Below are positions 22,201-61,200 of a stretch of DNA of 64,000 nt, piece by piece. This stretch comes from Bathymodiolus brooksi. Taxonomy: Eukaryota; Mollusca; Bivalvia; Mytilida; Modiolidae. The stretch is taken from assembly GCA_963680875.1 (NCBI GenBank), contig OY804578.1:103879689-103943688 (forward strand), in the 5' to 3' direction. Numbering within the stretch: position 1 is the first letter of the stretch; the number at the start of each line of letters is the position of its first letter. The translations under genes and the position numbers were made by a program. The notes under the pieces are model-generated. The model searched no databases and had not been told where the DNA came from. It worked only from the letters and a program-made list of their open reading frames with translations.

Positions 22201-25200
22201 TTTTTTTTCAACTTTCTGAAAGTTTTGCATATTTGAAATGTTAATGCCTAACAATCTTAGCGGAGAATAACATAAATGTGTCTATCTTTTTCTCATTGTT
22301 CTTGACAAGATTTAAAAGTGATGCTATAATTAATAACCAATCAAAACAATTCCAGACACTTATGATAAGATATTTAACTCATTTCTTGCTTCTGCCTTCC
22401 CCTTAATTATGTATCTCAATGTTTATATCATATACATTTAACACCAGTTAGATTCTTACAAGTTATAGATGGTGGGTTCGAGCCCCGATCAGGTCAAACC
22501 AAAGACTATAAAATTGGTATTTGTTGTTTCTTCGCTAAGCACACAGCATTAAAGAGAAAGAGCAAAGACTGATTGACTCGAAATCAGAATAATGTGTCTA
22601 TGTGGGGCGACATGTCTACTTGCAGACTGTTGTTTCAGTCAGCTAGCACTATAAAAAATCCAACTATGCATGGTAGCCTAGTACAAAGTGCATCTCCTCA
22701 TCTCATTGAACTCAATTAACTTATTCTCGCCATGATATACCGGTAGCTGAAATCTGTGTGAGTTGGAGTTGAGCAACAAGCACTCACTCAATGTTTATTT
22801 ACATCATATACATTTAGCACTGGTGGTAGTTCTTGCAAGTTACAATATCCTGTGAATTCGTTTACATTTCTGAATACCAATTTTTCGTGTTTTGAGGAAA
22901 AATCGTATTTTCGTTGATACATAAATTCGTTGATCTGCTTGCTGATATAGTCATTACATATGTGTATATGGTGACAAATATTTGTTGAATTCTAAATTTT
23001 GTGGTTTAAATAATTTTTGATACTATCTATGAAATCCACGAAAATTGGTATATTACGAATAGGAATGAATTCTCAGTATTAAATAGATAAATATATTTAA
23101 AAAATATAATTTGCAAAATTTTGTTTAAAATATATTAAAATGTTAGAAGAATAAATCTTTCGTTATCTGATATATTTTCAACATGTGATTACGACATTGT
23201 ATCTATTAAGTATCTGCCTTACGATACAGAAACACTGAAGTAGTAACTGTTTTGTCAGTCCACATGGTGTTTGTTCATTTACATTATCTTTTTAACAGCA
23301 CAGAAAAACATTGGAAATAATTCCATGAACCAAGTTACTATTTAGTTTGCACATGATTTCGAGATGCACCTTCAAATACTGCTTTCATACAGTAGCTACC
23401 CTCTTATTAGGCCACTCCCATAACAGGCTTCCCCTCTTATTAGGCCACTCCCATAATAGGCTTCCCCTTTTATTAGGCCACTCCCATAATAGGCTTCCCC
23501 TCTTATTAGGTCACTCCCATAATAGGCTTCCCTTCTTATTAGGCCACTCCCATAATAGTCTTCCCCTCTTATTAGGCCACTCCCATAATAGGCTTCCCCT
23601 TTTATTAGGCCACTCCCATGATAGGCCACCTCTCTTATCAGGTCAGATTTCAGATGCGCCAATCTTACTACATGTACTAAATTATTCCAATCAAGAGATG
23701 CCATCCCTCTTTTAAGGACACTGTTTCATTGCAGAAGAGGTGGTCTTATAAAATTTAATGAGGTGTCAGAGCAATTAATTTGATTATGAAGCACAAATTA
23801 TTGATAAATTATAGAAATGGGACAGACTCAAAAATATGGTATGGTTAAATTGATAAATGGGATGTTATCTCTCCACATTGATTGTCTAGATCTCCAGTGG
23901 ACAAATATAATAAAACCACATACAAGTTTGTTGTAGGTTTAAATTTTATTGGTCAATCTCCCTCAGGTATATGTAACCTTTGCAGATTTTGGTTTATGGT
24001 GTTTTATGCCACTTTCAACAATATTTCAGTGGCCTTAGACCCTTTAGTTTACTAGCTCTCAAAGACTTAAATTTTTTGGTTTTCCAATCTTTTGAATATT
24101 AGCGTACCTGAAGAAGATTATTCCAGAAATTTGTCATGCATACTAAACAAGATATCTATGTTCTTATTACAGGTCCCAATCGGAAGGAAGATGATTGGGA
24201 ATACTATAAAAAGAACAACACGACCTCAAACTGTCGTCGGTAGGTAACACATAGACAACTATATATACAAGTATTTATTTAGCAGTATATACATATTTTA
24301 TCTAGCTCTGTATCATTAGATAGAATCTGATTAGCTGTTCGAAAGATTTTGATTTACTGTCATTTATTATCCTTTACAATAGTTCGGTATTATGTCAAAA
24401 AAAGAAAGAAAAGAAAAAAAGGCAAGAGCTTTGAAGCATATGGCACAGTTGCAGATAAGAAAAATTTCCTGTCAGACATTGGGTCCTGCAAGTAAGAGAG
24501 TTTTGCCAGACCTACTTGTTTTTAGAAATTTTTTAATAGTTCACTTTCAATACAGTATGATTAAAAAAGGGACATCTTAAAGCCTTAACACAGTTAACGA
24601 CTATATGCTACTACGACCAGATTAAGGATATTGCCAAAAGGGGGGCTAGTGACTGAGACCACATTCAATTTAGATAGCCCTGCAACATCAAATAATCAAT
24701 CCTTCATATTATTAAGATTGTATTATTCCTCTAATGAGTATTTTGATATCAAGTAGTCCTTTGTTTGTTCATTTTCTTCTTCTTCTTCCCAGATACGAGT
24801 CAGACTCTGTAGTTACTGAGTGTGTGTGACTCGGGCGCATAAACAATCAGACAGGGGGCCCCTCCAAAACAGGTAAAAGTCCAAAGAGATGGATGGTATA
24901 TACAAATAAAAGTCATGTACAATATATACATCGTACGGCTGCCCTGTCGTTTATCTGTGTTGTGATAAAGGCCTGGCAGGGGATGGAATTCAACCTGACC
25001 TTAAAGTCCTCTAGGGAACCAGCATCTACAACTGAAGATGGTACTCGGTTCCATTCCCTGATGGATCTCGGGAAGAAGGAATATATGTGTCCTTCTTGGC
25101 TCTGATCTGTCCGAGTCTATGGTTTCCTCTTGTTCTGGAGTCCCCTGCTGTATATTAGTTGGCTGGTTCAATGGCAATCATCTGATGGTGGATCTTGTAG

Positions 25201-28200
25201 CACATTACAAGGGTTTGTTTCCATCCTCTTTGCAGGAGGGATTCCCATTGAAGACTGTTTAGCAGGTTTGTTACACAGCCTGGGGAGTTGTCCTGGTAAC
25301 AGTTATAGAACTGAGATTTTGTTCAAACTCAAAGTCAGACTCAATGCTCTTTTCATGGTCAGTTATTGTACTAAGCTTAGAGTTGGAGCAGCCAGTTATA
25401 AAAAGATGCTTATGCTTTAAGTTTACTTTCGAATTTGTCAGTCGTGCATGCTCGGTAGGTATCAGGTCAAATCGGCACCTGGTCATTTCAGCACCTATCT
25501 ACATAGTCAAATCGGCACTTACTCAAATCAGCACCTAGTCAATTCGGCACCTGTCATGGTCAATTCGGCACCAGTGTTAAAAATAATTTTGTAATAATAA
25601 AATATTTATATAAAAAAAAAAAGAAAAAAGGTTGGTTTTATTAGCTAGTACCAAATATAATCTATAGTCAATCAACAAATTTTTTTTTATGGTTATTACG
25701 ATTGCAGTTGATTGCTTTAATCAACTTTAATTATTTCCTTCATTAAATAAATACTTATAATATAAATTCAATACATCTAACATGCCGCGTGATTAACATT
25801 AGATGTGTTTCTTTTAAATATACTCTGGAAATCTTTGATGTTACAATGTAGAAGGAAAGACAATCAAGCCTACACCCAAGCCATCGTCATTATTTTGAGA
25901 AAATTTAGAAAAACACAAGCTTAATTTTGAATTAAAATGGGAAATTTGGAGAGCACATTATCACTTGCAAAATGTCAGACGACAGCTGCATACAGTGTAC
26001 AAACCAAGTCCGTCCTAGACAAGAGGTACTTCAATGTGAACAATGTCAACGTTGGCAGCATCGCACTTGCAATACTGGTAAGAGAATATTTTTTTAACTT
26101 TGACTAAATAGAACATGAAATAAGTAAAACGAATGCAGATTTTTTTGTTAATTAATGGATTTTGATTTCCGATACATGCTTGTATAGGGAATTATACGAA
26201 TAATTGTTTTATTATATTAGATTAGGTTTATTTTTGCTTTTGAAAACGAATTTATTGGAAGAAAACACCATTCACACACTTTTCTCATTTAATGCGTTAC
26301 AAAATATAATTAATAAATGCAATTTATTGACTCTGAAAGTTGTAGTTAAATTGACTATATTGTTCTATCTGTCATCGTTATTTATGATATTGCAAAATTA
26401 ATAAAATTAATAAATGCAATTTATTAACTCTGAATATTGTTTCTTTTTTTTTTAAATTATTTATGTATTGTGAAGCAGAATATGAACATTTTACAGATAA
26501 CATGTTTCATACAAATACATATATACATTTAAATATTAATCACTAAAATATCAATAAAATTATAATTTTCCAATGTACAAATGGAAAAAAATATATACAT
26601 AGGTGCCGAATTGACTATCGGAAGGTGCCGAATAGACTATTGGAAGGTGCCGATTTGACCAAGTGCCATTTAACTTGGGGTCGAAATGACTAACCTAGGT
26701 GCCGATTTGACTAGGTGCCGAAATGACCAGGTGCCGAAGTGACTTGAATTCGCTCGGTACACACTGCATTTCATAACATTTTTAGACTCATTATACGACA
26801 ACCGTCCTTCCATTTTTGATTAAAGGACCGCCCCGGTCGCCTCTCCTTCTCATGATATGTCGACCTTTTGGCTTTTTTATTCTCTGTAGATAAATCGATA
26901 AGTAGTGGGTGCTTTTTTCCAGGTTTAGACCCCTCCGTAAACTTAATTGGCCATGCAACCATAACGGAAATGATCAAATTACAATTTACAACGATTACCG
27001 ATAGGATACGAAATAAAATCCGGAATGGAAACTGGTTCCCGAAATTTAGCATAAACAGAAAGGAACAGAAATTTTTACCGATTTGTTTACGACTTTTGAC
27101 TTTATTAACGATAATCAAAGATCCTTCGTCTTAGGGGTCTAAGAGGTAATAACCAGGACCGACAGAAATTTAATTTTTGACAGCCCCAAGCAGTAAAATT
27201 GTTTGCCGGTCATTAGGTCTGACACAAAGACGTCATTTGCCGGACCCTCTAAAATTCTGCCCCCTAGGTCCGACACGGCCGACGATTAGCTGCATCTCTG
27301 ATATGGACTTCGTTAAAAAAATCCTGAAAAACTAAGCCATTATAATAAATTACAGTCAAACCTGTATTAAGAGGTCACTTTTGGGAAAAAGTGGTCTTTT
27401 AAGACAGGTGACCTCTTAAAAGAGGTTCAATTCATATGAAATTGTATATGACAGGACTAGAAAAGTGTGTTCTTTAATAAAAGGTGACTGCTTAATAGAG
27501 GTGACCACATGTACAGGTTTGACTGTATTAATTTGTATACCTGCCTTACCGGTCACCTCAAATAAACGGTCACCTCTGTCTAACGGTCACTTTGAGACCC
27601 GCCCAACTAATATTACTATATAATTTAACTCTTTTCAACGGTCACCTCTCTAACGCGGCCAACAGTCACCTATTTCATGCGTGAATTGTGAGATCGTCTT
27701 CTAATAACGGCCATTTTGGACATCTTATCACATGACATAATGTGTACGATCGATCACATGATACGGTTACTTTTAAGATAATAAATAATCGCCGAAGGGA
27801 AATACAACTAATTGAGTTGGTAATTTAAATGTTAAATAAACATAGATAAAAAGAGATCCTAATAAACAATTGAATAGGTGTAAACAGTGTTCATTGAGGC
27901 TCATTAAAATAATCTTTATGAAAACAGGTGCAATAAAAGTTTGTCCGAGACGTGATGTTTCAAAGCCGTATCTTAACGTTAAATTAGAAACATGAAGCTA
28001 TTTAAAAATGCAAAGTGGGAAAAGTGGCTGTTAAGTATTTTGAAAGTGATTTTGTTGAAAAGTAATACATTACGGTTTTTAAAGAAACTTTAATTTCGTT
28101 CAATAACAAACAACAATGGTCCATTGGAAAGTGAACGAAATCCGACTCTGTGCTATGAGAAATGTTGACCAAACTTTTTGTCCAAAGCTACTTTCAGCAG

Positions 28201-31200: not shown

Positions 31201-34200
31201 TGACTAGTGTTCACTGTGTTATTATTGTCTAAAAACCAATCTGCAACCAAGACTAAAGTATCAATGAGTCTTTAGATCATCAAATCATCACTATGATATG
31301 GATTATATGTTGTCTGCAGTAGTTGTATCAACTCTCTTTTAAAGCTAGTACTTTTTAAGTTTTCTAATCTGTATTTTGCACCATTGCTAATGTACTGTTT
31401 GATAAATTCAAGTTCTGATTAATTTCATGTAAATTTCCAGGTATTAACACAGACAAATTAGTTTAGTATATATAACATTGTGCACAAAGCATTTAATAGA
31501 CCTAGATGATTTTTTTCAGTTATTTATCTGAAATCAGTCCATATTGCTTTGGAAAAAAATTACGAAAGTTACAGAACAAGTTCAGAACAAGTCAAATACA
31601 TTCCTTTTTGAAAGGGGGTGTAGATGGTTTCAGCTAATTTTCATAGATTTCAGTTATTTTATTTTCTAACTAATCCCTGAATAGAGATATTTCTATAATA
31701 TATCAAATCAAGCCATGATATTTGTCGATGAAAGATATAAAAATAAACTTTTTTAAATGATTATCACTGATTTACAGAAGATTAAAACTTCAATCGACCA
31801 TTTATTTTAATAAATAGTTAATTTTGAAAATTAGAAATATAATGGTTTTTTTTTTCAAAGTTTTTCTTGAATGACACAAAGTCCTTTGATTGATTTATAA
31901 TTGCAGATGAATTTCAAAAACTTTTGTTTAAATATAACTGAGTTACACCATCCCTAGTGACAGATGATATTTTCAATATTATGTTGAAAGTGATACTGAT
32001 TAAATCATATACTTATCCCCTCCCCAAACCACCACCCCCCCAAAAAAAACAGGCAAATTTCTGAAAAATCAAACCATTGCTATTCTTTATATCCTGTTGT
32101 AAAGTAAATTTGTTATTACTGTATACAGATAATCTTTAAAGCTCATATATATTTATATCTAGGATTATTTAACCAAACAAAGTACTTGTATTGTATTGTG
32201 GCAAACAAGATATCTGTAGTACATGTATAGTTTTTTCCCATGATGCTTTGTGCACTATGTTACATTGAAGTACTTTTTAACTATTATTCATCAGTTCATG
32301 CTAACAATAACCTGTTATGTGGTCATTACTTGAGAATTCTTTGACTTCCAAAAAAAAAAAAAAAAGATATACAATTTTTTCAAAATTTATTACACCATGA
32401 TATAGCTGAAAAATTGCTGAGTTGCATTGGCATTAAACACCAATCACTCACTTGAAACTTTATTGTGTGTTAATTATGCTTTTTGTATTTTTGCATATTT
32501 TCACGAAAATCTGTGTCAAATGTTCGACTAATTTCAAACAGAATGACCACATGACTTCTCTGTAGTGCCATGCTTTGCTAACTAACCTTGCTTGATTCCT
32601 TCCTAGACGCGGAGCACGTTAAAAAAGCTTTAGAAGTTTACAACAGTGTAAATTCCAGCACCAATCCCTCACCTTTAACACAGGAAGCCACTCCTACACC
32701 TTGCCCTGGCATTAAGGCAAAAGTTTTACCTACTGCCTCAAATGTTAATGAGGTTTCCATGACAACGCTAAGAGAATCGGAAGAATTGAAAAAAGAGGAT
32801 GAACCAGATAGGAAGAAAGGTATTGGTCAGAGAACTATGCTTATTTCAATGTGTTGTAAACATATTTTCAGTCATTATTTTGCATTTGTTTATCTATTTA
32901 TTGTAGATGATCGCCATGGTTTGTTTGATCATAAAATCACATACAATTAATTACACAAAACACCATAAACAGAACTCATCTATGAAAACACAGGCTTTTA
33001 AATTGTAATACATGTAGAGATTTATTACAATGAAATCTGTCTAAATTGAGCCAGGGGTCATCGTGGTCGTGATCGTATGGTAGTTGGATTTACAACTACC
33101 TGTACAATTCAGTGCATATGACCACTAAACTTGTGATTTGAATTCCGTTCATGGCGAGGTGTACTCGATACAAAATTATGTGAGTTTGTGAGTGACTTGC
33201 AACAGATCTGTAATTTACTACGGGTACTCCAGTTTCCTTCACCAATAAAACTGACCGCCATAATATAACTGAAATATTGTTGAAAGTGGCATTAAACACT
33301 ATAAGCCTAATTTGAACCCTGAGTAAACTGCTATCTTGTATATATCAAAATAAATAGAGTCCCAATGTAGGAAATCTTTACTAATTTATCCTGTATAAAC
33401 TGAACACCTGTCTATTCCGAACACAAAAATTGGTTTCACAAGTAGGTTGGTCCAGTTTAGAGTGGGTCTGAAAGGGGTCTAAGCGTGATACGTGAATGGC
33501 CTTTTTTCGGAAGCGTGACACGTGAAAAACAGAAAATATAGACGTGAAAACGTGATCTCTAGTGCAACGTGATCCGTGAAAAATAATTATTCTGTACGTG
33601 AATGCGTGAAAATCTAACTTACTTTTAAGCATGAAGACGAAACACAAGTACATCTGGTGTATTCATTAGCTGTGGAACCGTAGCCCTAATTATGGTCCTT
33701 GGCCAGTTTTCTGATATTTGCGGACCTATAAGGGCTACGGTTCCGCAGCTAGTGTATTCATATGCTCAGGAAGAACATTCAAATCATAATATAATCGGTG
33801 AAATTAGTCACAATCTGGCAGCTATGAGGAACTGCCATATAACTAAACAACAAAAACCAACTATAAAACTACACATACAGATGTCACAATAAGGTCTTCC
33901 ACATATATAACTGACACCAAGAAGTCCCTGACAATAAACGGTAATCAACCCATGCAGATAAGCGTGAAACGTGAAATATCCAAATATCTAAGCGTGAAGC
34001 GTGATTTTGCTAAATTTTAAGCGTGATTGCGTGATTGGTACCCCCCCTTTAGGACCCCCTTTAGACAGTTTTTACTGTATATTGATTTCATATTTTTATT
34101 AGTATTGTAACGCCACGATATAGCTGAAATATTGCTAAAGTTGGCATTAAACACCAATCAATCAATCATATTAGTATAATAAGCATTTCATAATTATATT

Positions 34201-40200: not shown

Positions 40201-43200
40201 TGCATGCAAAAGTAAAATAACCTTCTGAATCAAACTCATACCTTTTGTTTAATTCTGTATTTATTTAGTGAAGATCGCAGACAGCCAATGGCTATGAATG
40301 AGTGGTTTTATTTTTCATCAAACATTGAAAACTTGAAGATTTGACCAAATTAATGACAATTCCTAATATATTTCTTCACTTAAAGTGTAGTACTTATCTT
40401 AAAATTTATATCATCATTGTTTAGTTTCAGGTGATGATTTCACAGAGTTAAAAGGTTTGTAATTCTTAGTATACATATTTTAATAACTAAAATTGTGAGT
40501 TCGAACCCCATTCATGGCGAAGTGTACTCGATACAACATTATGTGATAAAGTTTGTCAGTGACTTGCGACAGGTCCACCAATAAAATTGACCGCCACGAT
40601 ATAAGTGAAATATTGTTGAAAGTGGCGTTAAACACCATAAACCAACCAACCAACCAACCAACCCTATTTTGGTTTTTCTTTTATTATCAAAGCATGATAT
40701 AAACATATTATCGCTGTTTTCTATTGGGACATTTCAATGACGTCACCTTGCCAAATACTCAATAAACATACTATTGTTGATATGATTTACTTGAAATGGA
40801 CTTCTAATCGCATCTCATCCCATCAGTGGTGTAATGGTTAGCGTGCTCGCCTAGAGTGTGATAGATCGCAGGTTTGAGCTCAGATCGGGTCAAACCAAAG
40901 ACTATAAAATTGATATTTGTTGCTTCTTTGCTAAGAACGCAGCATTAAGGAGGTATATCAGTGGCATTCAGGTTAGACAACTCTATGTTAAAAACGTTGT
41001 TGTATAATTTTTCGAGTTGAAATACTTCAGAAAATTTTACATGAATTAATAAAATAACAAATACAGTAAAACCTGCAGGTTGCCTTCAGTGCTCTTTATA
41101 TACAGGTTTGACTGAATAGTGAACATTTGATTGTAATGATAGAATTATTTCTTTAGTAGGGGTCATCATGGTTGTGATCATATGGTAGTTGGATTTACAT
41201 CTATCTATGCAATCAATGCCTATTACCACTAAAGTTGAGAGTTTGAATCCTGCTCATGACGAGGTGTACTCAATACAACTTATATGATAAAGTTGTCAGT
41301 GACTTGCAGCAGGTCTGTGGGTTTTCTCTGGGGACTCCAGTTTCCTCCACCAATAAAACTGACCGCCACGATATAGCTGAAATATTGGTGGCATTAAACA
41401 CCATAACCTATAACCTATTTCTTTTGTTTTCTTTTTTCCTGTGTTAATTTTATTATTACATCAATTTTATAATTCTAATGACCACCATGATGTAACTGAA
41501 ATATTGGTGAAAGTGGCGTTAAACACCATTAACCTAACCTCAATTTTATATGTCCGTCTCATGCAGTCTTCACTCTAACCCACTCGCCCCAAGCCTGGGT
41601 AAATCAGGATTCGGACAAGTGAAAATTATGAAAGAATTTATTTGATTAAATAGAAACAATTTCTAAATTTGGGTTTTGGACAAATAGGTGAAAAAAATTA
41701 AGGCTAAGACTGCTCTTGGCATGACTTGATAAAATGTTGAAATTTTGATTATTGCTTACAGATGAAGTGAATAGTTTCCAATCCTTGTAAAACTTCAATA
41801 CGTATATTATTCCTGTCATTTATAAGAGCTAGAACTTGAATGCTGCTGTATAAATCTCAATTAAATGGCGATAGTCTTTGAGTTACATCAGAAACTGTAA
41901 ATCATATCTATTAGACTACATTAAAAACTACAGAGCTGCTGTATCTTTCACTCAGAAACTGGTAGAAAAGTGAGACTTTGACAAGCTTTTCTGGCCTGTT
42001 TTGCAACGAGGGCAAATTAATTTTATATTCACTGACGAAGTACATTTATTGTTTTTATCCTGCAATGTCAAATCTTTTTCACTCACCCAGCCAAGTGTTT
42101 TTTTTAGTAAATTTTTTTAGCTCACTCATCCCACTTTGTGTCATGTCCAATCTTTTTCACTCACCCAGTAAGTGCTTTTTTTGAATATTTTTTTTTAGCT
42201 CACTCAGCCCACTTTGTGTCGTGTTCAATCTTTTTCACTCACCCAGCCAAGTGCTTTTTTTGAGTATTTTTTTTAGCTCACTCAGCCCACTTTGTGTCAT
42301 GTCCAATCTTTTTCACTCACCCAGCCAAGTGCTTTTTTTGAGTATTTTTTTCTAACTCACTCAGCCCACTTTGTGTCGTGTTCAATCTTTTTCACTCACC
42401 CAGCCAATTGCTTTTTTGATTATTTTTTTCTATCTCACTCAGCCCACTTTGTGTCGTGTTCAATCTTTTGCCATCACTTGGCGTCTGTCGTCCGTTAACT
42501 TTTCACATTTTAATCTTCTCCTCTGAAACCCCTCAGCTATATGAACTGAAACTTGCTAGGAAGCATCTATGGAAGATCCTCTATAAAGATTGCTCATTTT
42601 GTCCCGATCCATTAACAAACATGGCCACCACAGGCAATTCATATTTCTGATTGGCCTATTTTTAAAAATCTTCTCCTCTAAAACCGCTTAGCCAAATGAA
42701 CTGAAACTTGGTAGGAAGCATCTATGGAAGGTCCTCTATAAAGATTGCTAATTTCATCTTGATCTGTTAACAAACATGGCTGCCACAGGCGATTCTTGTT
42801 TCTGATTGATTGATATCTAAAAAATCAGTTTTACTGTTAAAAGAGAGATAACTCTAGTTTAAATATAGATACATTTTGTATCTATTCAAAATGCAGTTAT
42901 CTCTGAATTGAATTACAGATAAATATGCCTTTAAAAACCCCTCAACCAGATGAACTGAAACTTGGTAGGAACCATCGATGGAAGGTCCTCCATAAAGATC
43001 GCTCATTTCTTCCTGATCCGTTAACGAACATGGCCGCCACAGGCGACGCTTGTTTTTGATTGGCTGATTTTTAGCTCACGTGGCCTTTAGGCCAGGTGAG
43101 CTATTGTCATCACTTTTCGTCCGTCGTCCGTCCGTCAACATTTCACATTTTAATCTTCTCTTCAGAAACCACTGGGCCAATTGCAACCAAACTTTGGTGG

Positions 43201-46200
43201 AATGGTCCTTGGATGGCCCCCTTCCAAAATTGTGTCCGGTGATCCCGACTTCCAACCAAGATGGCCGTCAAGCTAAAAATAGAAAAAAGGGGGGATGAAA
43301 TTTTAATTGTCCATTGTTGCTTTAGTATAAATCAAAATGAGCTCAAATTTTGACTGCAGCTACATGGCAATGAGTAGTTTAACGTATATTCCGGGTTTTT
43401 CTGTGAAATTTTTCTTTCAGCCGATTTATACCGATTATGCAAATTAGGCATATTTTGATAAAAGATCACATTTAAATCTTCTTCTCTGAAACCGCTGAGC
43501 CAAATTAAACCAAACCTGGCAGGGATGGTCCCTGGGTGGGTCCCTTTCAAAATTGTGTCTGACAGCCCCGCTCTCCATCCAAGATGGCCGCTATTACTAA
43601 AAATAGATATTTCTTCAAATGGCCAAAACTGCTTTATTTTAAGCCAGAATGTGCCCAAATTTGAACTGTATAAGCATAATGATGAGCTTTTTAACATATA
43701 TTATGGGATTTTTTATGAACTTTGGACTTTTGCCGATTTTGACCGATTATGCAAATTAGGCATAAATAAGCAAAACATCATTTGAAAATCTTCTTGTAAG
43801 AAACCACTAGGCCAATTTCAACCAAACTTTGTCTGAATGATCCTTAGGTGGTCCCCTTTCAAAATTGTGTCCGTCAACACTGTCCTGTATCCAAGATGGC
43901 CGCCGTTACTAAAAATAGAAATTTCTTCAAATGGCCAAAACTGCTCTATTTTAAGCCAGAATGTGCCCAAATTTGAACTGTTAAAGCATAATGATGAGCT
44001 TTTAAACATATATTACGGGATTTTTTATGAACTTTGAACTTTTGCCGATTTTGACCGATTATGCATATTAGAAAAAAGGGGGGATGAAATTTAAAAAAAA
44101 TCTTCTCCTCTGAAACTACTGAGCCAATCTCAACCAAACTTTGCTGAAATGATTCTTGGGTGGTCCTCTTCCAAATCTGTGTCCGGCATTTCAGAACTTC
44201 GACCAATATGGCTGCCACAGCCGAACTTAATTTAACATGGGACCCTATGGGAAATTCCCATAAAAATCTTCTTTTCTGAAACTATTTGCTCAATAAGAAC
44301 AAAATTTTGATGAAATAGTCATTGGATGGTTCTCTTCCAAAATTATGTCTGGCGGTTCGGCCCTTTGACCAAGATGGCCCCCACAGCCGAACTTAGCTTA
44401 ACATAGGACCCTATGGGAAATTCACATAAAAATCTTCTCCTCAGAAACCACTGGGCCAATTGCAACCAAACTTTGGTGGAATGATCCTTGGATGGCCCCC
44501 TTCCAAAATTGTGTCCGGTGTTCCCGACTTCCAACCAAGATGGCCGCCATGCTAAAAATAGAAAAAAGGAGGATGAAATTTAAAAAAAAATCTTCTCCTC
44601 TGAAACTACTGAGCCAATCTCAACCAAACTTTGCTGAAATGATCCTTGGGTGGTCCCCTTCCAAAATTGTGTCCGGCATTTCATACCTCCGACCAAGATG
44701 GCCACCACAGCCGAACTTAATTTAACATAGGACCCTATGGGAAATTCCCATAAAAATCTTCTTGTCTGAAACCATTTGCTCAATAAGAACAAAATTTTGA
44801 TGAAATAGTCATTGGATGGTTATCTTTCAAAAATGTGTCCGACGGTTCGGCCCTTCGAACATGATGGCCCCCACAGCCGAACTTAGCTTAACATAGGACC
44901 CTATGGGAAATTCACATAAAAATCTTCTTGTCTGGAACCTTTGAGTTGCTCAATTGGAACCAAACTTTGATAAAATAGCCATTGGATGGTCCTCTTCCAA
45001 AATTGTGTCAGGTGGTCCCACCCTCTGACCAAGATGGCTGCACAGCTGTACTTAGTTTAACATAGGACCCTATGGGAAATTCACATAAAAACCATCTTGT
45101 CTGGAACCAGTAGCTCAATTAGAACCAAACTTTGATGGAATAGTCATTGGATGGTCCTCTTCCAAAATTGTGTCCGGCAGTCGTGCTCTTCCACCAAGAT
45201 GGCTGCCGCAGTGCAGTTGCGTTGTTATTGAAAGCAGCTTTGATCCAGGTGAGCGATTACAGGCTCCTGGGAGCCTCTGGTTTAGATTCTTCTCCTCTGA
45301 AACCGTTCGGCCAAATGAACCGAAACTTGGTAGAAAGCATCTATGGAAAGTCCTCTGTTACGATTGCTAATTTTGTCCCGATCCGTTAACAAACATGGTG
45401 GCCACAGACAATTCTTGTTTCTGATTGGTTGATTTTTTTAAATTCTTCTCTGAAGAAACCGCTTTGCCAAATGAACCGAAACTTGGTAGGATGCATCTAT
45501 GGAAGGTCCTCTATAAAGATTGCTCATTTCGTCCCGATCCATTAACAGAAATGGCTGTCACAGGCAATTCTTGTTTCTAATTGGTTGATTTCTAAAAATC
45601 TTGTCCTCTGAAACCGCTTTGCCAAATGAACCGAAACTTGGTAGGAAGCTTTTATGGAAGGTTCTCTATAAAGATTGCTGATTTTGTCCGGATCCATTAA
45701 CAAACATGGCTATCACAGGCAATTCTTGTTTCTGATTGGTCGATTTCTAAAAATCTTGTACTCTGAAACAGCTTGGCCAAATGGACCGAAACGTGATAGG
45801 AAGCATCTATGGAAGGTCCTCTATGGGAATTGCTCATTCTGTTTTGATCCGTTGTTTCGTATTGTTCGATTTCTAAAACAGCTTTTCCTCTGAAACTGCT
45901 TGGCCAAATGATATGAAACTTGGTAAGAAGCTTCTATAGAAGATCCTCTATAGAGATTGCTCATTTCATTTTGATCCATTAACAAACATGGCTGCCACAG
46001 GCAATTCTTGTTTTAGATTGGTCGATTTCCAAAAATCTTCTTCTTTGAAACTGCTTTGCCAAAATGATCCAATATTTGGTGGGAAGCACCTATGGAAGGT
46101 TCTGTATTAAGTTTCCTCAAAGCAGAATGAAAGGTGAGCGACACAGGCTCAGCCCTGACAGGGCTGAGCCAGTGTTGTTATTGTTGGAATTGTTTACCAT

Positions 46201-49200
46201 CACTGTTTAAACTTTCGTTTTTTATGAATTTATTGAAGCCATTGATGAAATTGATTCTCCAAAGAAAGAACCTAAGAAAGTGTCTGGTAAAGTGAAAGTG
46301 AAAGAGGAAGTAGATGATGAACCTACTACATCTAAATCTTCAGGGAAAGGAAAAGCTGCAAAGAGTGGAGGTAAAAAAGGGAAATCAGGAAAAGAAGAAA
46401 ATGATACTGAGGAAAAAGAAGTAGGTAAGGGATTTTTTTTAATGTGACAAATATTTTAACTTGACACTAAATGTTTCGTGTTACTGTGTGCATTTAAGTT
46501 TTCTGATAATTATATTGTAGTAGAAAGGTCTGTATTATGATTTTAACTATAATTTTGAGTTTGATTTTAGTATGAAATAACAATAAATGAACAATAGTGA
46601 ACGCAGAGATCCTTGCAATTCACTTACATGTAGATGGGTCTTGGACTCACATTTTGAGTTTGGACTCGCCAAAGTTTTTTAATTTTAAATTCTTACAATG
46701 ATGGGACTCTAAAAATTTCCGAAATATCCTCTGAACTCATATTAAATTGCTAGAAGTATCCCTGAGTACTAGTTAATAGTTATATCATAATGCTATGAAT
46801 AAAGTTATTTTTTTGCAATGTCATCTTAGAAATATTCCAGTTAAAATACCTTCTACCTTAAAAAGCAGATAATTTTGAAATGAATCATTCATTCATTTAG
46901 GCAGATTATATTTATCTTGTATAATATTGAATCATTCAAATTTATTGACAGATCTGCCCATAGAAGGGGTTTAAAAAGTGCATCCCCCAGATTCCAAAAT
47001 ATGTAATAATGAAATAAACCATAAAGACATTTCATTTGGGTCTGAAATTAGTAAATTGTTTTGACAGGATTGTATTCATAAAAGTAGTCATAAACCTTTT
47101 AAAATTCCACAATTTGACGGTGTGTCAATTAACTAATATATTTTTTCATTTACAGTAAAGAAATTGGTAATTGATTAATATGTATTTTTAGCTCATCTTG
47201 CCAAAGGCAATGTGAGCTTTTGCCATCACTTGGCGTCCGTCATCTGTCGTCTGTTAACTTTTCACATTTTAATCTTCTCCTCTGAAACCTCTCAGCCAAA
47301 TGAACTGAGACTTGGTAGGAAGCATCTATGGAAGATCCTCTTTAAAGATTGCTCATTTTGTCCCGAATCTATTAACAAACATGGCTGCCACAGGCAATTC
47401 ATGTTTCTGATTAGCTGATTTTTTAGCTCACCTGGATAAAGGTCGTGAGCTTTTGCCATCACTTGGCGTCCGTCCGTCCGTCGTACGTCGTAAACTTTAA
47501 TCTTCTCCTCAGAAAACACTGGGCCAATTGCAACCAAACCTTGGTGGAATGGTATTTGTATGGCCCTCTTCCAAAATTGTGTCCGTTGATCCCGACTTCC
47601 AACCAAGATGGCCGCCAAGCTAAAAATAGAAAAAAGGGGGGATGAAATTTTAATTGTCCATTGCTGCTATAGTATAAGTCAAAATGAGCTCAAATTTTAA
47701 TTGCAGCTACATGACAAGGAGTAGTTTAGCATATATTCCGGGTTTTTCTATGAAATTTTTCTTTCAGCCGATTTATACCGATTAAGCAAATTAGGCATAT
47801 TTTGATAAAAGATCACATTTAAATCTTCTTCTCTGAAATCGCTTAACCAAATCAAACCAAATTTGGCTGGGATAGTCCTAGTGTAGTCCCATTTCAAAAT
47901 TGTGTCCGACAGCCCCGCCCTCCATTCAAGATGGCTGCTGTTACTATAAATAGAAATTTCTTCAATTGTCCATTGCTGCTTTAGTATAAGTCAAAATGAG
48001 CTCAAATTTTAACTGCAGCTACATGGCAAGGAGTAGTTTAACATATATTCCGTTTTCTGTGAAATATTTCTTTCAGCCGATTTATACTGATTATGCAAAT
48101 TAGGCATATTTTGATAAAAGATCACATTTAAATCTTCTCCTCTGAAACCGCTGAACCAAATTAAACCAAACCTGGGAGGGATGGTCCTTGGGTGGTCCCC
48201 TTTCAATAATGTGTCCGACAGCCCCACCCTCCATTCAGCCCCACCCTCCATTCAAACTGGCTGCTGTTGCTAAAAATAGATATTTCTTCAAATGGCCAAA
48301 ACTGCTTTATTTTAAGCCAGAATGTGCCCAAATTTGAACTGTATAAGCATAATGATGAGCTTTTTAACATATATTATGGGATTTTTTATGAACTTTGGAC
48401 TTTTGCCGATTTTGACCGATTATGCAAATTAGGCATAAATAAGCAAAACATAATTTAAAAATCTTCTTGTAAGAAACCACTAGGCCAATTTCAACCAAAC
48501 TTTGTCTGAATGATCCTTAGGTGGTCCCCTTTCAAAATTGTGTCCGTCAACACCGTCCTGTATCCAAGATGGCCGCATTACTAAAAATAGAAATTTCTTC
48601 AAATGGCCAAAACTGCTCTATTTTAAGCCAGAATGTGCCCAAATTTGAACTGTTAAAGCATAATGATGAGCTTTTAAACGTATATTACGGGATTTTTTAT
48701 GAACTTTGAACTTTTGCCGATTTTGACCGATTATGCATATTAGAAAAAAGGGGGGATGAAATTTAAAAAAAATCTTCTCCTCTGAAACTACTGAGCCAAT
48801 CTCAACCAAACTTTGCTGAAATGATTCTTGGGTGGTCCTCTTCCAAATCTGTGTCCGGCATTTCAGAACTTCGACCAATATGGCCACCACAGCCGAACTT
48901 AATTTAACATGGGACCCTATGGGAAATTCCCATAAAAATCTTCTTTTCTGAAACTATTTGCTCAATAAGAACAAAATTTTGATGAAACAGTCATTGGATG
49001 GTTCTCTTCCAAAAATATGTCTGGCGGTTTGGCCCTTTGACCAAGATGGCCCCCACAGCCGAACTTAGCTTAACATAGGACCCTATGGGAAATTCACATA
49101 AAAATCTTCTCCTCAGAAACCACTGGGCCAATTGCAACCAAACTTTGGTGGAATGATCCTTGGATGGCCCCCTTCCAAAATTGTGTCTGGTGTTCCCGAC

Positions 49201-52200
49201 TTCCAACCAAGATGGCCGCCATGCTAAAAATAGAAAAAGGAGGATGAAATTTAAAAAAAAATCTTCTCCTCTGAAACTACTGAGCCAATCTCAACCAAAC
49301 TTTGCTGAAATGATCCTTGGGTGGTCCCCTTCCAAAATTGTGTCCGGCATTTCATACCTCCGACCAAGATGGCCACCACAGCCGAACTTAATTTAACATA
49401 GGACCCTATGGGAAATTCCCATAAAAATCTTCTTGTCTGAAACCATTTGCTCAATAAGAACAAAATTTTGATGAAATAGTCATTGGTTGGTTATCTTTCA
49501 AAAATGTGTCCGACGGTTCGGCCCTTCGAACATGATGGCCCCCACAGCCGAACTTAGCTTAACATAGGACCCTATGGGAAATTCACATAAAAATCTTCTT
49601 GTCTGGAACCTTTGAGTTGCTCAATTGGAACCAAACTTTGATAAAATAGCCATTGGATGGTCCTCTTCCAAAATTGTGTCTGGTGGTCCCACCCTCTGAC
49701 CAAGATGGCTGCACAGCTGTACTTAGTTTAACATAGGACCCTATGGGAAATTCACATAAAAACCATCTTGTCTGGAACCAGTAGCTCAATTAGAACCAAA
49801 CTTTGATGGAATAGTCATTGGATGGTCCTCTTCCAAAATTGTGTCCGGCAGTCGTGCTCTTCCACCAAGATGGCTGCCGCAGTGCAGTTGCGTTGTTATT
49901 GAAAGCAGCTTTGATCCAGGTGAGCGATTACAGGCTCCTGGGAGCCTCTGGTTTAGATTCTTCTCCTCTGAAACCGTTCGGCCAAATGAACCGAAACTTG
50001 GTAGAAAGCATCTATGGAAAGTCCTCTGTTACGATTGCTAATTTTGTCCCGATCCGTTAACAAACATGGTGGCCACAGACAATTCTTGTTTCTGATTGGT
50101 TGATTTTTTAAAAATTCTTCTCTGAAGAAACCGCTTTGCCAAATGAACCGAAACTTGGTAGGATGCATCTATGGAAGGTCCTCTATAAAGATTGCTCATT
50201 TCGTCCCGATCCATTAACAGAAATGGCTGTCACAGGCAATTCTTGTTTCTAATTGGTTGATTTCTAAAAATCTTGTCCTCTGAAACCGCTTTGCCAAATG
50301 AACCGAAACTTGGTAGGAAGCTTTTATGGAAGGTTCTCTATAAAGATTGCTGATTTTGTCCGGATTCATTAACAAACATGGCTGTCACAGGCAATTCTTG
50401 TTTCTGATTGGTCGATTTCTAAAAATCTTGTACTCTGAAACAGCTTGGCCAAATGGACCGAAACGTGATAGGAAGCATCTATGGAAGGTCCTCTATGGGA
50501 ATTGCTCATTCTGTTTTGATCCGTTGTTTCGTATTGTTCGATTTCTAAAACAGCTTTTCCTCTGAAACTGCTTGGCCAAATGATATGAAACTTTGTAAGA
50601 AGCATCTATGGAAGATCCTCTATAGAGATTGCTCATTTCATTTTGATCCATTAACAAACATGGCTGCCACAGGCAATTCTTGTTTTAGATTGGTCGATTT
50701 CCAAAAATCTTCTTCTTTGAAACTGCTTTGCCAAAATGATCCAATATTTGGTGGGAAGCACCTATGGAAGGTTCTGTATTAAGTTTCCTCAAAGCAGAAT
50801 GAAAGGTGAGCGATACAGGCTCAGCCCTGACAGGGCTGAGCCAGTGTTGTTATTGTTGGAATTGTTTACCATCACTGTTTAAACTTTCGTTTTTTATGAA
50901 TTTATTGAAGCCATTGATGAAATTGATTCTCCAAAGAAAGAACCTAAGAAAGTGTCTGGTAAAGTGAAAGTGAAAGAGGAAGTAGATGATGAACCTACTA
51001 CATCTAAATCTTCAGGGAAAGGAAAAGCTGAAAAGAGTGGAGGTAAAAAAGGGAAATCAGGAAAAGAAGAAAATGATACTGAGGAAAAAGAAGTAGGTAA
51101 GGGATTTTTAGCTCACCTGGCCATAGGCCATGTGAGCTTTTGTCATGGGTAAGCATCCGTCGTCCGTCCGTCCGTCCGTTAGCTTTTCACATTTAAATCT
51201 TCTTCTCTGAAACCGCTAAACAGAAATCAGCCAAACTTGCCAGAAATGTTCACTGGATGGTCCTCTACCAGATTTGTGTTTTTGGTGCTGATTTGAAATC
51301 CAACATGGCTGCCAGGGTCCATAATGTGTTCTCATTGGCTGAAATTTTAAAAATCTTCTTGTCAGAAACCACTAAGTCAATTGAATTGTGACTTTGCAGG
51401 AATGATCATTGGGTGGTCCTGTACTAAAATTGTGAATCGTTTGCCGATCGGAAATTCAAGATGGCCGCCATGACTCGACTTAGTTTAACATTGGACCCTA
51501 TGGGAATTTCACATTTTCATCTTTTTTTCTGAAACCACAAAACAGATTTGAACCAAACTTGGCAGAAATGTTCATTGGATCGTCATATACAAGAATTTTG
51601 TTTTTGGCGCTGATCGGAAATCCAACATGGCTGCCAGGGCCCATAATGTGTTCTGATTGGTCGAAATTTTAAAAATCTTCTTGTTAGAAACCACTAAGCC
51701 AATTGAATTGTGACTTTGCAGGAATAATCATTGGGTGGTCCTGTACTAAACTTGTGAATCGTTTGCCAATCGGAAATTCAAGATGGCCGCCATGACTCGA
51801 CTTAGTTTAACATTGGACCCTATGGGAATTTCACATTTTCATCTTTTTTTCTGAAACCACAAAACAGATTTGAACCAAACTTGGCAGAAATGTTCATTGG
51901 ATGGTCATATACAAGATTTGTGTTTTTGGTGCTGATCGGAAATCCAACATGGCTGCCAGGGCCTATAATGTGTTCTGATTGGTCGAAATTTAAAAAATCT
52001 TCTTATTAGAAACCACTAAGCCAATTGAATTGTGGCTTTGCAGGAATGATCATTGGATGGTCCTGTACTAAACTTGTGAATCGTTTGCTGATCGGAAATT
52101 CAAGATGGCCGTCATGACTCGACTTAATTTTAACATAGGACCCTATGGAAAAAATGTTTAAAAGTCTTCTCCTCTGAAACCAGTAAGTCAGTTTAAAGCA

Positions 52201-55200: not shown

Positions 55201-58200
55201 CCTTTATTTCAAAAACTATAAGAGATAGATGTTAAGTTTAAACTGCAAACATGTTCAGCATGTCAAGATCTACCTACCCGGAAATTTTGAAGTAAATCTG
55301 ATTACCCATCTTTGAGTTATTGCCCTTTTTTCATCAATTTTTTTTTTAAAAGTTTTTATACTTTTCGTCTTATATTTCAAACACTATAAGAGATAGATAT
55401 TAAGTTTAAATTGAAAAATGTGCAGCATGTCAAGATCTACCTACCCTGCAATTTTTATGTAAATCCCATTACCTATTTTGGAGTTATTTTTCTTTTTTCA
55501 TCAAATTTTCAAAATTTTAATACTTTTCATCCTTTATTTCAAAAACTATAAGAGATAGATGTAAAAGTTTAAACTGCAATAATGTTCAGCATGTCAAGAT
55601 CTACAAAAAAGTTCCACAGTTGAAAATATCCGACAACTGTGTGAAGAGATATTCCTCTTGAAATGCATTTTTTTTGTTGACCTTCTCTGCTTTTGGTTAC
55701 TCAAATAATCAGTCAAGCAACTCTATTACAAAATGTAAAGTAGCAAAAGCTAAATTTTGAGAATCATTGACATTTATGTTTTTTTTACAGCAATGCTGAT
55801 AGCTTACATTCAAGGGGGAACCCCTGCCTAAATTTTGGAAGTTGCGAAGGGATATAGTAACGCTACCGTCCGTCCTTCCGTAACATCCTTGTGAACACTC
55901 TAGAATCAACATCCTTCAATGGATTTTGACCAAACTAGGTACATACTTAGTCCTTAAGAGAATCTGGAACCCTAGTGATTTTCAAGGTCATAGGTCAAAG
56001 TCACCGGGTCAAATTTTTACCACGTAACATCCTTGTGAACTCTCTAGAATCAACATCCTTCAATGGATTTTGACCAAACTTGGTACATTCTTAGTCCTTA
56101 TGAGAGTCTGGAACCCTATTGCTTTTTAAGGTCAAGGGTCAATGTCACCGGGTCAAATTTTTACCACGTAACATTCTTGTGAACACTCTAGAATCAACAT
56201 CCTTCAATGGATTTTGACCAAGCTTGGTACATTCTTAGTCCTTAGGAGAGTCTGGAACCCTATTGATTTTCAAGGTTATAGGACAAAGGTCAATGTCACA
56301 GTCAAATTTTTACTGCATAATATCTTTGTGAACACTAGAATCAACATCCTTCAATGGATTTTGACCAAACTTGGTACATAGTTAGTCCTTACGAGAATCT
56401 GGAACCCTATTGATTTTCAAGGTTTTAGGTCAAAGGTAAGATTTTTAGGCGAGGGGATACGCTTGCGCTTTGCGTTGCTCTTGTTATTTTTTGACCGAAG
56501 TTATCAAGTTTTATTGACTGATGTTGTTATTATACCCAGGTGAGCTATACAGGCTCCTGTGAGTCTCTAGTTAGTACTCAAAATCACACAATTGCAGAAT
56601 GAAAATAGTAAAACTTCCTCTACAATTCTATGAGCATGCTCTTGGCACAATTGCAGGGGATTCAATATTTTTCAAGTATACCAGTATTTCACTATTTACA
56701 GTCGGTACTTTTTCTTAAAATTTGAACAATTTTCATTAATATCTTATGCAACAGTCTTTGAAATTAAGAGGTACCAAACATCCATGTTAAGTGGGTGAAA
56801 GTAGCTGGTACTACCCCTTATAGAAAGGCCTGAGTAAAAATGTTATTGGAATGACGAGACATGTTGATAACATTTTAGATGATTTCTATTTTTAAACATT
56901 TAAGATATTCCTACAATAAAGATCTTATCCGATTCTTACAACGTGATCCTCAGCAATACCATTACTCTTGATTGCCAAGTTGATGCTACACCCAGAGAAA
57001 CTGTAGTCTTCTGGCATAGAGTAATTAACGGACAATTAACCAACATCGATCTTGGCACAAACAACAATAACAAATACAGCGGTTCTACTGTTAGTACTCC
57101 TTCACTCACGATCACAAACGCCCAGAATTCCGACAAGGGAAATTACGTCTGCTACGTTACAAATTTGGCTGGAACTGGTTCTAGTAATCAAACCTTCCTT
57201 GATGTTGTAGGAAGTAAGTTGTAAATTCTAATTTTATCAGTAATGATTCCTTGAATTGTTCACTTTACCGTCATGTAAGGCAGTAAAGTGTTGATTAAAT
57301 GTAATTGATGGAAAATGCTGAAAAGTTTTCTGAAATTTGACAAGATGCTATGGCCATAAAACTTTTGAGCATGATTTTATTCTTGTACTCAAATAACAAC
57401 CAATCAGAACATTGGATTTTAAGCATACTTTGATCTGATTGGACAATTTTGGAGTACATGTATGAAAATCATACTCAAAAAAGGTTAGATATTTGGACAA
57501 CACAAATGATGACAGTTTAACTACACCTCTCAGTCTGATGATTAATGAGATAGATGAGATTACCATTATAAGTGGGTACATTGTAAATATCTGGTATCAC
57601 CTCTTACTGAAAGACCTGCAATTGAATACTTTGTATCAGATAAAATTATTAATATCAATTAATATTAAAATTACAAATTTAATACAGTGAAACCTGTCTA
57701 AACTGAACCCCGAATAAACCGAAATCCTGTATAAACCGAACTTTAAATAAAGTTCTCATGTAGGAAATCTTTGTTTATTTAACCTGTATAAACCAAAGAC
57801 CTGTCTATTCCAAACATAAAATTGGTCCCAAGGAGGTTCTGTTGAGACAGGTTTCACTGTACTTGAAGTTCGTGAGTGAACTCCTTGTATCGAAAGTATT
57901 TCAAGACCAAGTTTAGAAATATTTGTAAAAATCAGTATTATTTAAAATAATTTCAGGACCGAAAGATGGTATAGACTTACCAATAGGCCTATTGCCAGTA
58001 GCTGTAAGCTCACAGCCACTGGTTCATTTTGGAAAAAATCGTCCTTCGAGACCACAAATCCACAGACCAAAGCGTCCCACTACACCCGCTACAAATATTG
58101 TGGAGGAAGACATAAACTCTACGGAAGAAAACAATAATATTGATTACTTTTTCAAATCAGCTGCTGTGACGTCGAGCCAATCCAAATTTGAGAAAGATGT

Positions 58201-61200
58201 GAAAAATTTGTAAGTAAAAATGATTAGCAGATATTAGTTACAAATTTAAAATGAATCAAAATGGGAGAGATTTTTGTCTTGTCTTGTGTTATATTATTGT
58301 CTTGTCTTTTCTCTTTATTGATTTGTATTCTTTTGTATTATTCATGATGTTATTGTATTTATCTATGTTGAGGAGAGCTACTAGTAGCCTCTGGCTGTAT
58401 GTAATCCTCATGAAATAAATAAAGAATTAAATTAATTAACATTACCGGTATGTGATAAAGTTTGTCAGTGACTTGCGACAGGTCGATGGTTTTCTCCAGG
58501 TACTCTGCTTTCCTCCACGACCATGACGGCCCGCAAATTATTTGAAACTTATACACAAGGTCAAGGACCATATAAGGCAGGACAAGTTCAATTTTGGGCT
58601 TTAATATCACTATGTCGGCTCTCGAGTTATGCCCCTTGATTTACTAAAAAATGCAAATTTCTCCAGTTTTTGTTTAATAACTTAAATGTATCTTAAGCAA
58701 CTCATTTGGCATTGGTAAAAGAATGTTTTTGATTACATTGTGCATATCAAGTTAAAATTTTGTTATTCATTTTATAGTTCCACGGTTATGCCCATTAATT
58801 AATTTAAAAAATGACGAAAATAATGTTACCCGCATTAAAACGTTATACAAACTATGACTTTCATGAATTATTACGATTCTAGTAGGAAACTTTAACTTAT
58901 TTTTCAAAGTGGAAGTCAGTAATGGAAATAAATGTCTTAACAAAATACACTAACATTCATGGTTACAGTTTGGGTCAGGTGAACTATTGTCACCACTGAG
59001 CGTCCATCGTCTGTCCATTAACTTTTCACATTTTAATCAACTCCTCTGAAGCCACTGGGCCAATTTGAACCAAACTTTGGTGGAATGGTCCTTGGATGGC
59101 CCCCTTCCAAAATTGTGTCCGGTGATCCCGACTTCCAACCAAGATGGCCGCCAAGCAAAAAATAAAAAAAGGGGGGATGAAATTTTAATTGTCCATTGCT
59201 GCTTTAGTATAAGTCAAAATGAGCTCAAATTTTAACTGCAGCTACATGGCAATGAGTAGTTTAACATATATTCCGGACTCTTCTTTCAGCCGATTTATAC
59301 CGATTATGCAAATTAGGCATATTTTGATAAAAGATCACATTTAAATCTTCTCCTCTGAAACCGCTGAACCAAATTACACCAAGCCTGGCAGGGATGGTCC
59401 TTAGGTGGGTCCCTTTCAAAATGTTTCTGACAGCCCTGTGCTCCATTCAAGATGGCTGCTGTTACTAAAAATAGAAATTTCTTCAATTGTCCATTGCTGC
59501 TTTAGTATAAACCAAATTGAGCTCAAATTTTAGCTGCAGCTACATGGCAATGAGTAGTTTAACATATATTCCGGACTTTTCTATGAAATTTTTCTTTCAG
59601 CCGATTTATACCAATTATGCAAATTAGGCATATTTTGATAAAAGATCACATTTAAATCGTCTCCTCTGAAACCGCTGAACCAAATTACACCAAACCTGGC
59701 AGGGTGGGTCCCTTTCAAATTTATGTCTGACACCCCCACCCTCCATTTAAGATGGCTGCTGTTACTAAAAATAGAAATTTCTTCAATTGTCCATTGCTGC
59801 TTTAGTATAAACCAAAATGAGCTCAAATTTTAACTGCAGCTACATGGCAATGAGTAGTTTAACATATATTCCGGACTCTTCTGTGAAATTTTTCTTTCAG
59901 CCGATTTATACCGATTATGCAAATTAGGCATATTTTGATAAAAAATCACATTTAAATCTTTTCCTTTGAAACCGCTGAACCAAATTAAACCAAACCTGGC
60001 AGAGATGGTCCTTGTGTGGGTCCCTTTCAAACTTGTTTCTGACAACCCTACGCTCCATTCAAGATGGCTGCTGTTACTAAAAATAGAAATTTCTTCAATT
60101 GTCCATTGCTGCTTTAGTATAAACCAAAATGAGCTCAAATTTTAACTGCAGCTACATGGCAATGAGTAGTTTAACATATATTCCGGGCTTTTCTGTGAAA
60201 TTTTTCTGTCAGCCGATTTATACCGATTATGCAAATTAGGCATATTTTGATGAAAGATCACATTTAAATCTTTTCCTCTGGAACCGCTGAACCAAATTAA
60301 ACCAAACTTGGCAGGGATGGTCCTTGGGTGGGTCCCTTTCAAAAATGTGTCTGACAGCCCCGCCCTCCATTCAAGATGGCTGCTGTTACTAGAAATAGAA
60401 ATTTCTTCAATTGCCCATTGCTGCTTTAGTATAAACCGAAATGAGCTCAAATTTTAACTGCGGCTACATGGCAATGAGTAGTTTAACATGTAATCCGAGT
60501 TTTTCTTTGGAATTTTTCGTTCAGCCGATTTATACCGATTATGCAAATTAGGTATATTTTGATAAAAGTTCACATTTAAATCTTCTTCTCTGAAACAGCC
60601 AAACCAAATTAAACCAAATTTGGCTGGGATAGTCCTTGGGTAGTCCCATTTCAAAATTGTATCCCACAGCTCCACCCTCCATTCAAGATGGCTGCTGTTA
60701 CTAAAAATAGAAATTTCTTCAATTGTCCGTTGCTGCTTTATTATAAATCAAAATGAGCTCAAATCTTAACTGCAGCTACATGACAATGAGTAGATTATTT
60801 TTTTCAACCGATTAATACCGATTATAGAAATTAGGCATATTTTGATAAACGATCACATTTAAATCTTCTCCTCTGAAACCGCTGAACCAAATTAAAGCAA
60901 ATTTGGCTGGGATCCTTGGGTTGTCCCCTTTCAATAGTGTGTCCGACAGCCCCACCCTCCATTCAAAATGCTCCTGTTACTAAAAATAGAAATTTCTTTA
61001 GTTGTCATTTTCTGCTTTATTACAAATCAAAATGAACTCAAATTTTAACTGCAGCTACATGGCAATGAGTAGTTTAATGTATATTCTGGGTTTTTCTGTG
61101 GGATTTTTTCAGGCAGTTTATTCCATTTAGGAATATTATGAGATAAAAATCACATCAAAATCTTTTGCTCAGAAATTTGAGTTGAAATGATCTTTGGGTG

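Follow-up and report, generated by a model that had tools for sequence, protein, structure and literature searches.

A MITE-bracketed copy of an immunoglobulin exon, open and in frame, in a CARMIL intron of Bathymodiolus brooksi

Introduction

Exon shuffling follows the phase 1-1 rule for symmetrical modules. To our knowledge, it has mostly been inferred from old architectures, and few events are known in which the donor exon, the carrier and the scar are all readable. Among the closest described systems are the animal Pack-TIRs, of which 370 were reported across 100 animal genomes (Tan et al. 2021, PMC8277862). In that report, single-copy animal Pack-TIRs were ascribed mostly to gap filling, with a bias towards nearby (cis) sources, and 13.4% captured exonic sequence (PMC8277862). 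Moreover, the RIG-I-like receptors of oysters and other lophotrochozoans were described as having acquired IG domains, through exon gain or through exonization (PMC8998645).

The window considered here is a stretch of 64,000 nucleotides from the bivalve Bathymodiolus brooksi (assembly GCA_963680875.1, contig OY804578.1, positions 103,879,689 to 103,943,688 of the forward strand), and positions without a contig name are those of the window, unless given as contig positions. Within an intron of a gene for the cytosolic actin regulator CARMIL, the window carries an Ig-domain exon that is bracketed by the ends of a MITE; its source exon, the copying at the DNA level, the MITE ends, the target-site duplication and the compatibility of its frame are all observed directly. 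A literature search covering CARMIL in molluscs and bivalves and CARMIL splicing, with relevance judged by title, found no papers on an Ig exon in CARMIL among those listed.

Results

A single Ig-family match was found in the six frames of the 64-kb window, namely an open exon of 309 nt at 56905–57213 (+, phase 1-1), preceded by AG at 56903–56904 and directly followed by GTAAGT. Its phase-1 translation (DIPTIKIL...FLDVVG) was free of stops and scored above the Pfam cut-offs of both Ig_3 (E 2.5e−11, 44.4 bits, cut-off 30) and I-set (E 1.5e−10, 41.4 bits, cut-off 23.7), while Cys24, Trp37, Tyr81 and Cys83 were invariant or almost invariant across the Ig family, the profile scores and the core residues together identifying the exon as an immunoglobulin domain. 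Furthermore, its AlphaFold2 model reached a mean pLDDT of 89.4 and a pTM of 0.83, with the Ig domains of PD-L1, CD147 and NCAM2 among the structure matches, and the solved structures closest to it in sequence were those of Roundabout and titin. The complete Ig core and stop-free exon noticed in an initial sequence-only reading were thus borne out by the Pfam scores, the core residues, the open frame and the structure model. The splice sites, described in that reading as good, were of unequal quality: the donor site was strong, but the acceptor was weak when set against those of the exon array that holds the source exon (D1, described below). In particular, the acceptor reads AAG in the window exon and CAG in the source exon (C to A at −3), and it scored lower than 32 of the 36 array acceptors taken into the comparison out of 38, the splice-site scan of the array being limited to phase-1 positions, so that other phases were left uncounted. 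An AAG acceptor was also present in 4 of the 38 array exons.

The host gene was established with the help of P0032 (1534 aa) and P0033 (1459 aa), full-length CARMIL proteins from other species, which were the sole two matches out of 4010 candidates. Since their frames ran uninterrupted, the contigs that encode them (4984 and 4881 bases, respectively) are probably mRNA. When P0032, which carries CARMIL_C and PF17888, was compared with the genome (161 candidates), 29 of the 30 scored matches were collinear at C4:103831944-103975095, covering residues 11–1534 with some gaps; therefore, the whole window sits within one CARMIL gene of 143 kb, and no second full CARMIL copy appeared among the scored P0032 matches. 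On the + strand of the window, the gene comprises exon a, with the helical dimerisation region (4635–4766), exon b (6114–6230), an exon c region open to 17692 with a GTAAGT inside (17558–17692), an exon of phase 0-1 ahead of a series of phase-1 introns (24173–24239, its end set by reading), exon e in two copies of phase 1-1 (46239–46424 and its tandem duplicate, e2, at 50911–51096), exon f, of phase 1-2, with the capping-protein-interaction motif (57957–58209), and exon region g, next after f (62361–62463). The matches of the exons themselves were weak: exons a and b aligned jointly with LRRC16A residues 699–785 (E 0.05), exon f matched LRRC16A with E-values of 0.16 and 0.48, and CARMIL_C stayed under the Pfam cut-off both for exon f and for the joined exons (E 0.056), for which the PDB search gave no match. 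The collinearity with P0032 put these matches on firm ground and confirmed the earlier assignment of the host as CARMIL.

Other features were also observed along the gene. Exon e is doubled by a tandem segment duplication (43143–46437 and 47813–51109, 96.2% over 3.3 kb), both copies being open and of phase 1-1, and a third copy (query 50905–51096) was found about 80 Mb away at C4:24069545-24069743 (−, 92%); the thirtieth P0032 match was an exon-e-like stretch at C4:24069546. An open, exon-like stretch of phase 1-1 in the same intron series, exon d (32607–32819), was not seen in P0032, and it was discarded as a second shuffled exon, as only the self-match was obtained from five genome candidates. 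Finally, an ATG-led, PHD-finger-like exon lies on the CARMIL strand at 25972–26077 (PHD E 1.7e−4, just under the cut-off), and an ORF at 10269–10832 with a GIY-YIG match (4.3e−5) is probably a transposable-element remnant.

To place the Ig exon in its family, its protein was compared with the genome of the species (2.0 Gb, 136 contigs), in which at least 150 family exons were scored out of 892 candidates. A total of 146 of these 150 places fell in nine clusters and four were solitary. A second Ig query (837 candidates, 150 scored) found neighbours for three of the four, leaving the window exon as the remaining solitary place among the scored ones; two weaker places, C8:34106027 and C19:78288033, were also solitary among those scored (by reading). 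In the protein search, 29 of 30 candidates were Ig proteins, most of them sharing the 3′ border of the window exon, and their appearance as lone Ig exons is partly due to the length rule of that search, which spanned 0.55–1.75 times the query length. None of 36 pattern matches in viral_contigs and none of 19 matches in genome_contigs were confirmed as relatives of the exon. Elsewhere in the genome, two near-regular Ig exon arrays (C6:94260766-94283336 and C6:95686612-95714747), with many equal-score copies at a spacing of about 1.7–1.8 kb, suggest very recent amplification.

Near-identical exons, proposed in the sequence-only reading as worth seeking genome-wide, were indeed found. The DNA search returned three candidates, all of which matched, namely the window exon itself, D1 (C4:100896866-100897174, 95% DNA identity, same strand, 3.04 Mb upstream) and D2 (C4:100897521-100897798, 96%, same strand), with no fourth copy. 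D1 and D2 belong to an array that comprises 38 Ig exons, every one on the + strand, and extends from contig position 100868209 to about 100918714. Because the array is flanked, by reading, by a signal-peptide-like ORF upstream and by ORFs with a transmembrane segment and a charged tail downstream, the donor looks like a giant transmembrane Ig receptor gene. A Mytilus multi-Ig protein, P0031, bears the name of hemicentin, a protein with VWA at the N terminus and EGF modules at the C terminus; the donor gene shows a transmembrane segment (by reading). The D1 protein was identical to P0003 from residue 9 onward. D2 differed from D1 at 3 of 503 positions, lacked the acceptor of D1 and had a changed donor site; it arose recently by partial tandem copying of D1, and expansion and decay are thus under way in this part of the donor array (C4:100896866-100897798).

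The likeness between window and donor was not confined to the exon, as the shared blocks spanned 56654–57296 and 57442–57556. To the left and right of the exon, the copy includes intron of the donor, and therefore the transfer took place as DNA; a retrocopy origin was ruled out because donor intron was included. The left edge of the shared sequence (56654) coincided exactly with the left end of a dispersed repeat of about 179 bp, which alone was covered by 39 of the 44 matches when a 1108-base query was compared with the genome (1956 candidates, 40 scored). The 20 copies retrieved start with CAGGGCTTTC and end with GAAAGGCCTG, as a MITE-like family. With a profile made from 19 copies (without those of the window and donor, and omitting the short copy L047), a full-length element was located at 56654–56832 (+, nhmmer E 2.6e−52, ends CAGGGGATTC and GAAAGGCCTG), and a right-end fragment of the same family at 57559–57618 (+, E 4.1e−7, profile 124–178 of 178, ending in GAAAGACCTG). 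The outer flanks of this bracket were CAATTG on both sides (56648–56653 and 57619–57624), identical at 6 of 6 positions. Six bases is the target-site length of the MITE family: the mean identity between flanks was 0.66 at 6 bp vs. 0.25–0.34 at the other lengths from 3 to 10, and the 6-bp duplication was perfect in 7 of 19 copies, matched at 5 of 6 positions in 3 and at 4 or fewer in 9. Identical 6-mers at the spacing of the bracket occurred at 24 of 63,023 window positions.

The bracket measures 965 bp, with a filler of about 726 bp. Next to the left MITE comes a linker (56833–56904, +) consisting of AGTAAA and donor intron with the acceptor. AGTAAA is the duplication of the donor MITE, a full element at contig positions 100896615–100896793 with AGTAAA on both flanks (6 of 6), and in the window copy it appears only on the inside, adjoining the donor intron. 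The exon is followed by donor intron with the donor site GTAAGT (57214–57296, +), and 57442–57556 (+) is a portion of a different repeat, which is likewise present downstream of the donor exon (100897275–100897405), the 145 bases before 57442 being missing from D1 and D2. Immediately to the right of the insert, at 57682–57861, lies a second, unlike inverted-repeat element, of which related copies occur at other places in the window as well as in the Ig array. Overall, both ends of one element family, in the same orientation, bracket a filler copied from a non-TE locus elsewhere (the array exon D1), with a target-site duplication of the family's length (CAATTG) outside; the insert thus appears to be built like a single-copy animal Pack-TIR, the MITE being known from its ends and 6-bp duplication alone. 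The idea of a captured exon, which the sequence-only reading had offered as an alternative, is well supported by the source exon and the mobile-element bracket.

Regarding how the insert arose and whether it is used, which are separate questions with overlapping odds that need not sum to one, exon capture mediated by a transposable element through gap filling of a resident MITE, the exon being unused or rarely used, is the probable explanation. A MITE would have resided in the phase-1 intron of CARMIL between e2 and f, having inserted with the CAATTG duplication, and a break within it would have been mended from the MITE beside the Ig exon of the receptor gene 3 Mb upstream. Copying would then have run past the donor MITE through its AGTAAA flank, donor intron, the entire Ig exon and the downstream intron, before joining up again with the resident MITE at its right end. 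The outcome would be a single-copy, MITE-bracketed duplicate (Pack-TIR) with a splice-ready, symmetrical exon in sense orientation, which may be silent, or a minor cassette exon at most, with its coding sequence drifting.

Composite transposition, in which two MITE ends around the array exon would have been excised together and the unit would have jumped into CARMIL, is possible but not the expected route. The 965-bp bracket with CAATTG on each side fits it as well, and the divergence between the window and donor MITEs (27/178) was about that of the linker (12/72), as expected for a unit moved whole. However, no right MITE end was found at the matching place in D1 or D2, where the array continues into other sequence, another copy of the downstream repeat near contig position 100902634 was also without it, and no further copy of the MITE-bracketed unit appeared among the scored matches. 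Moreover, the window MITE showed an identity of 0.848 to the donor MITE vs. 0.865–0.893 to 18 other copies (L030, a duplicate of L029, being omitted too from this consensus comparison), and only one non-consensus base was common to the window and donor MITEs. Gap filling is favoured over a jump because the array has no right MITE end and the window MITE is not specially donor-like; it is ranked ahead on these grounds, short of proof.

Differences between the window exon and D1 amounted to 15 of 309 positions, including nine replacements. This was a lower proportion than in the pooled flanks (52/446, p 0.001) and in the linker (12/72, p 0.0014), and not significantly different from that of the 3′ flanks alone (13/196, p 0.43). 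The pooled-flank test may overstate constraint, because the 5′ flank is mostly MITE and the window and donor MITEs may be independent insertions; the 5′ flank was discarded as a neutral clock for that reason, and without the MITE the pooled flanks differed at 25 of 268 positions vs. 15 of 309 in the exon (p 0.048). All 15 changes in the exon were transitions, vs. 19 of 52 in the flanks (p 8e−6). The nine replacements were mild by BLOSUM62 (p 0.0055–0.028 across four settings) and no better than random by the Ig family profile (p 0.13–0.24); eight of them departed from the commoner family residue (the exception being position 7, where the window exon has the commoner one), and near-invariant positions were struck, namely V5 (47/49), G17 (49/54) and A85 (58/59). 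The dN/dS between window and donor, suggested in the sequence-only reading as a check, was estimated at 0.45, which is not significantly below 1 (p 0.13), and an intact frame under neutral decay had a chance of 0.01–0.28 in five settings. The low exon change, the transitions only and the mild replacements hint at constraint, either after insertion or earlier within the array.

No single age fits the insert, because the MITE and linker diverged by 15–17% vs. 4–10% in the exon and 3′ flanks. In the tree of the exons, the sister of the window copy was P0004 (support 98/91), with a branch length of 0 for the donor and of 0.06 for the window copy beyond 0.058 in common with P0004. The frame of P0004 is open, its 3′ border is that of the window exon, and D23, K78 and N95 are common to both, against D1 (by reading), so part of the divergence of the window exon may predate the insertion. 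Since no fourth copy was found in the genome, P0004 may represent either this insertion in another species or an array exon that has since been lost.

The junctions of e2, the Ig exon and f keep the reading frame (..EKEV/DIPT..DVVG/RPKDG..). The earlier emphasis on identical phases stands in that the exon is of phase 1-1 and in frame, but the argument is weak: in the stretch from about 24239 to 57956, which makes up about half of the window, everything outside the exons is phase-1 intron (by reading), and a random insertion in the window would land in frame, strand included, with a chance of about 0.26 (about one in four). The frame match was therefore rejected as a sign of function. In relatives, the comparison covered the CARMIL proteins P0032 and P0033 of two species, both without the Ig exon: searched with the Ig-family profile, neither P0032 (best 0 bits) nor P0033 showed an Ig domain, and in P0032 exon e (residues 947–1012) is followed directly by exon f (1013–1097). 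A query with the spliced chimera, over a range of about 155–494 aa, gave one match out of 1469 candidates, the Mytilus protein P0031, which is no chimera. The CARMIL–Ig chimera envisaged at the outset is a candidate only.

Use of the exon as a regulated cassette, by which certain isoforms of CARMIL would gain an Ig domain immediately ahead of their capping-protein-binding motif, is unlikely. Such use is favoured by the open frame, both splice sites, the sense strand and the matching phase, by the dN/dS of 0.45 and the mild replacements, by the fewer changes in the exon than in the pooled flanks and the linker, and by the gain of exon e in the same intron region, as it is present in P0032 and was not seen in the more distant P0033. 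Against it stand a dN/dS not significantly below 1, replacements that are no better than random by the family profile and hit near-invariant positions, the weakened acceptor and the CARMIL proteins without the exon. It is unlikely that some transcripts of CARMIL already include the captured exon.

An origin by recombination as an ordinary segmental duplication, in which the MITE would lie at the edge and the CAATTG match would be coincidental, is very unlikely. In its favour, the MITE occurs at many places in the genome (at least 39 other matches), lone right-end fragments occur (another of similar score lies at C4:100751963-100752035, in 250 kb examined) and the Ig exon copy and its source are on one contig; however, the left edge falls exactly at an element end, the right edge is a right-end fragment of the same family in the same orientation, and the perfect duplication has the family's own target-site length. 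That the exon belongs to a nested gene of its own on this strand, an idea also raised in the sequence-only reading, is extremely improbable, given one Ig-family match in the six frames of the window and the nearest scored family members on the contig more than 1.3 Mb away.

Discussion

Within the best explanation, namely capture of an array exon by gap filling of a resident MITE, the route through gap repair and the absence of use are inferred. If, as is unlikely, the exon is already part of some CARMIL transcripts, a MITE would have supplied a cytosolic actin regulator with an extracellular Ig domain that came ready-made and in frame from a giant receptor, and it would be a case of exon shuffling in which the donor, the carrier and the target-site duplication are all legible. 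A genome rich in symmetrical Ig exons, together with a dispersed MITE, offers a concrete route by which phase 1-1 modules may spread to unrelated genes, and a splice-ready, in-frame exon in a cytosolic gene may be raw material for new protein architecture.

With respect to known systems, the closest likeness is to the animal Pack-TIRs, as the ends of a TIR element bracket a non-TE duplicate both there and in the CARMIL intron (PMC8277862). Cases recounted in that report include UTR, retained-intron and ncRNA chimeras and the small gene Ssk-FB4; unlike them, the CARMIL insert carries a whole internal exon of coding sequence together with its two splice sites, oriented in sense and lying in frame within a coding intron, and its filler is about 726 bp vs. 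a median of 224 bp in animal Pack-TIRs (PMC8277862). The grafting of IG domains onto RIG-I-like receptors is alike in that an Ig domain joins another gene, but it was inferred, in the account given there, from the gene models of paralogs and orthologs, whereas in CARMIL both the donor exon and the element that moved can be seen directly, any use of the exon being putative (PMC8998645). In Turmoil-1 of C. elegans, host coding sequence is likewise found within an animal transposable element; as described, it lies inside inverted terminal repeats, while that of the CARMIL insert lies between MITE ends and in one copy (PMC2572040). Finally, the insert resembles metazoan exon shuffling in the movement of a symmetrical class 1-1 module via introns, but the events treated in that source are old and inferred from architecture, whereas in the CARMIL insert the carrier is legible and the recipient is cytosolic (PMC8001218).
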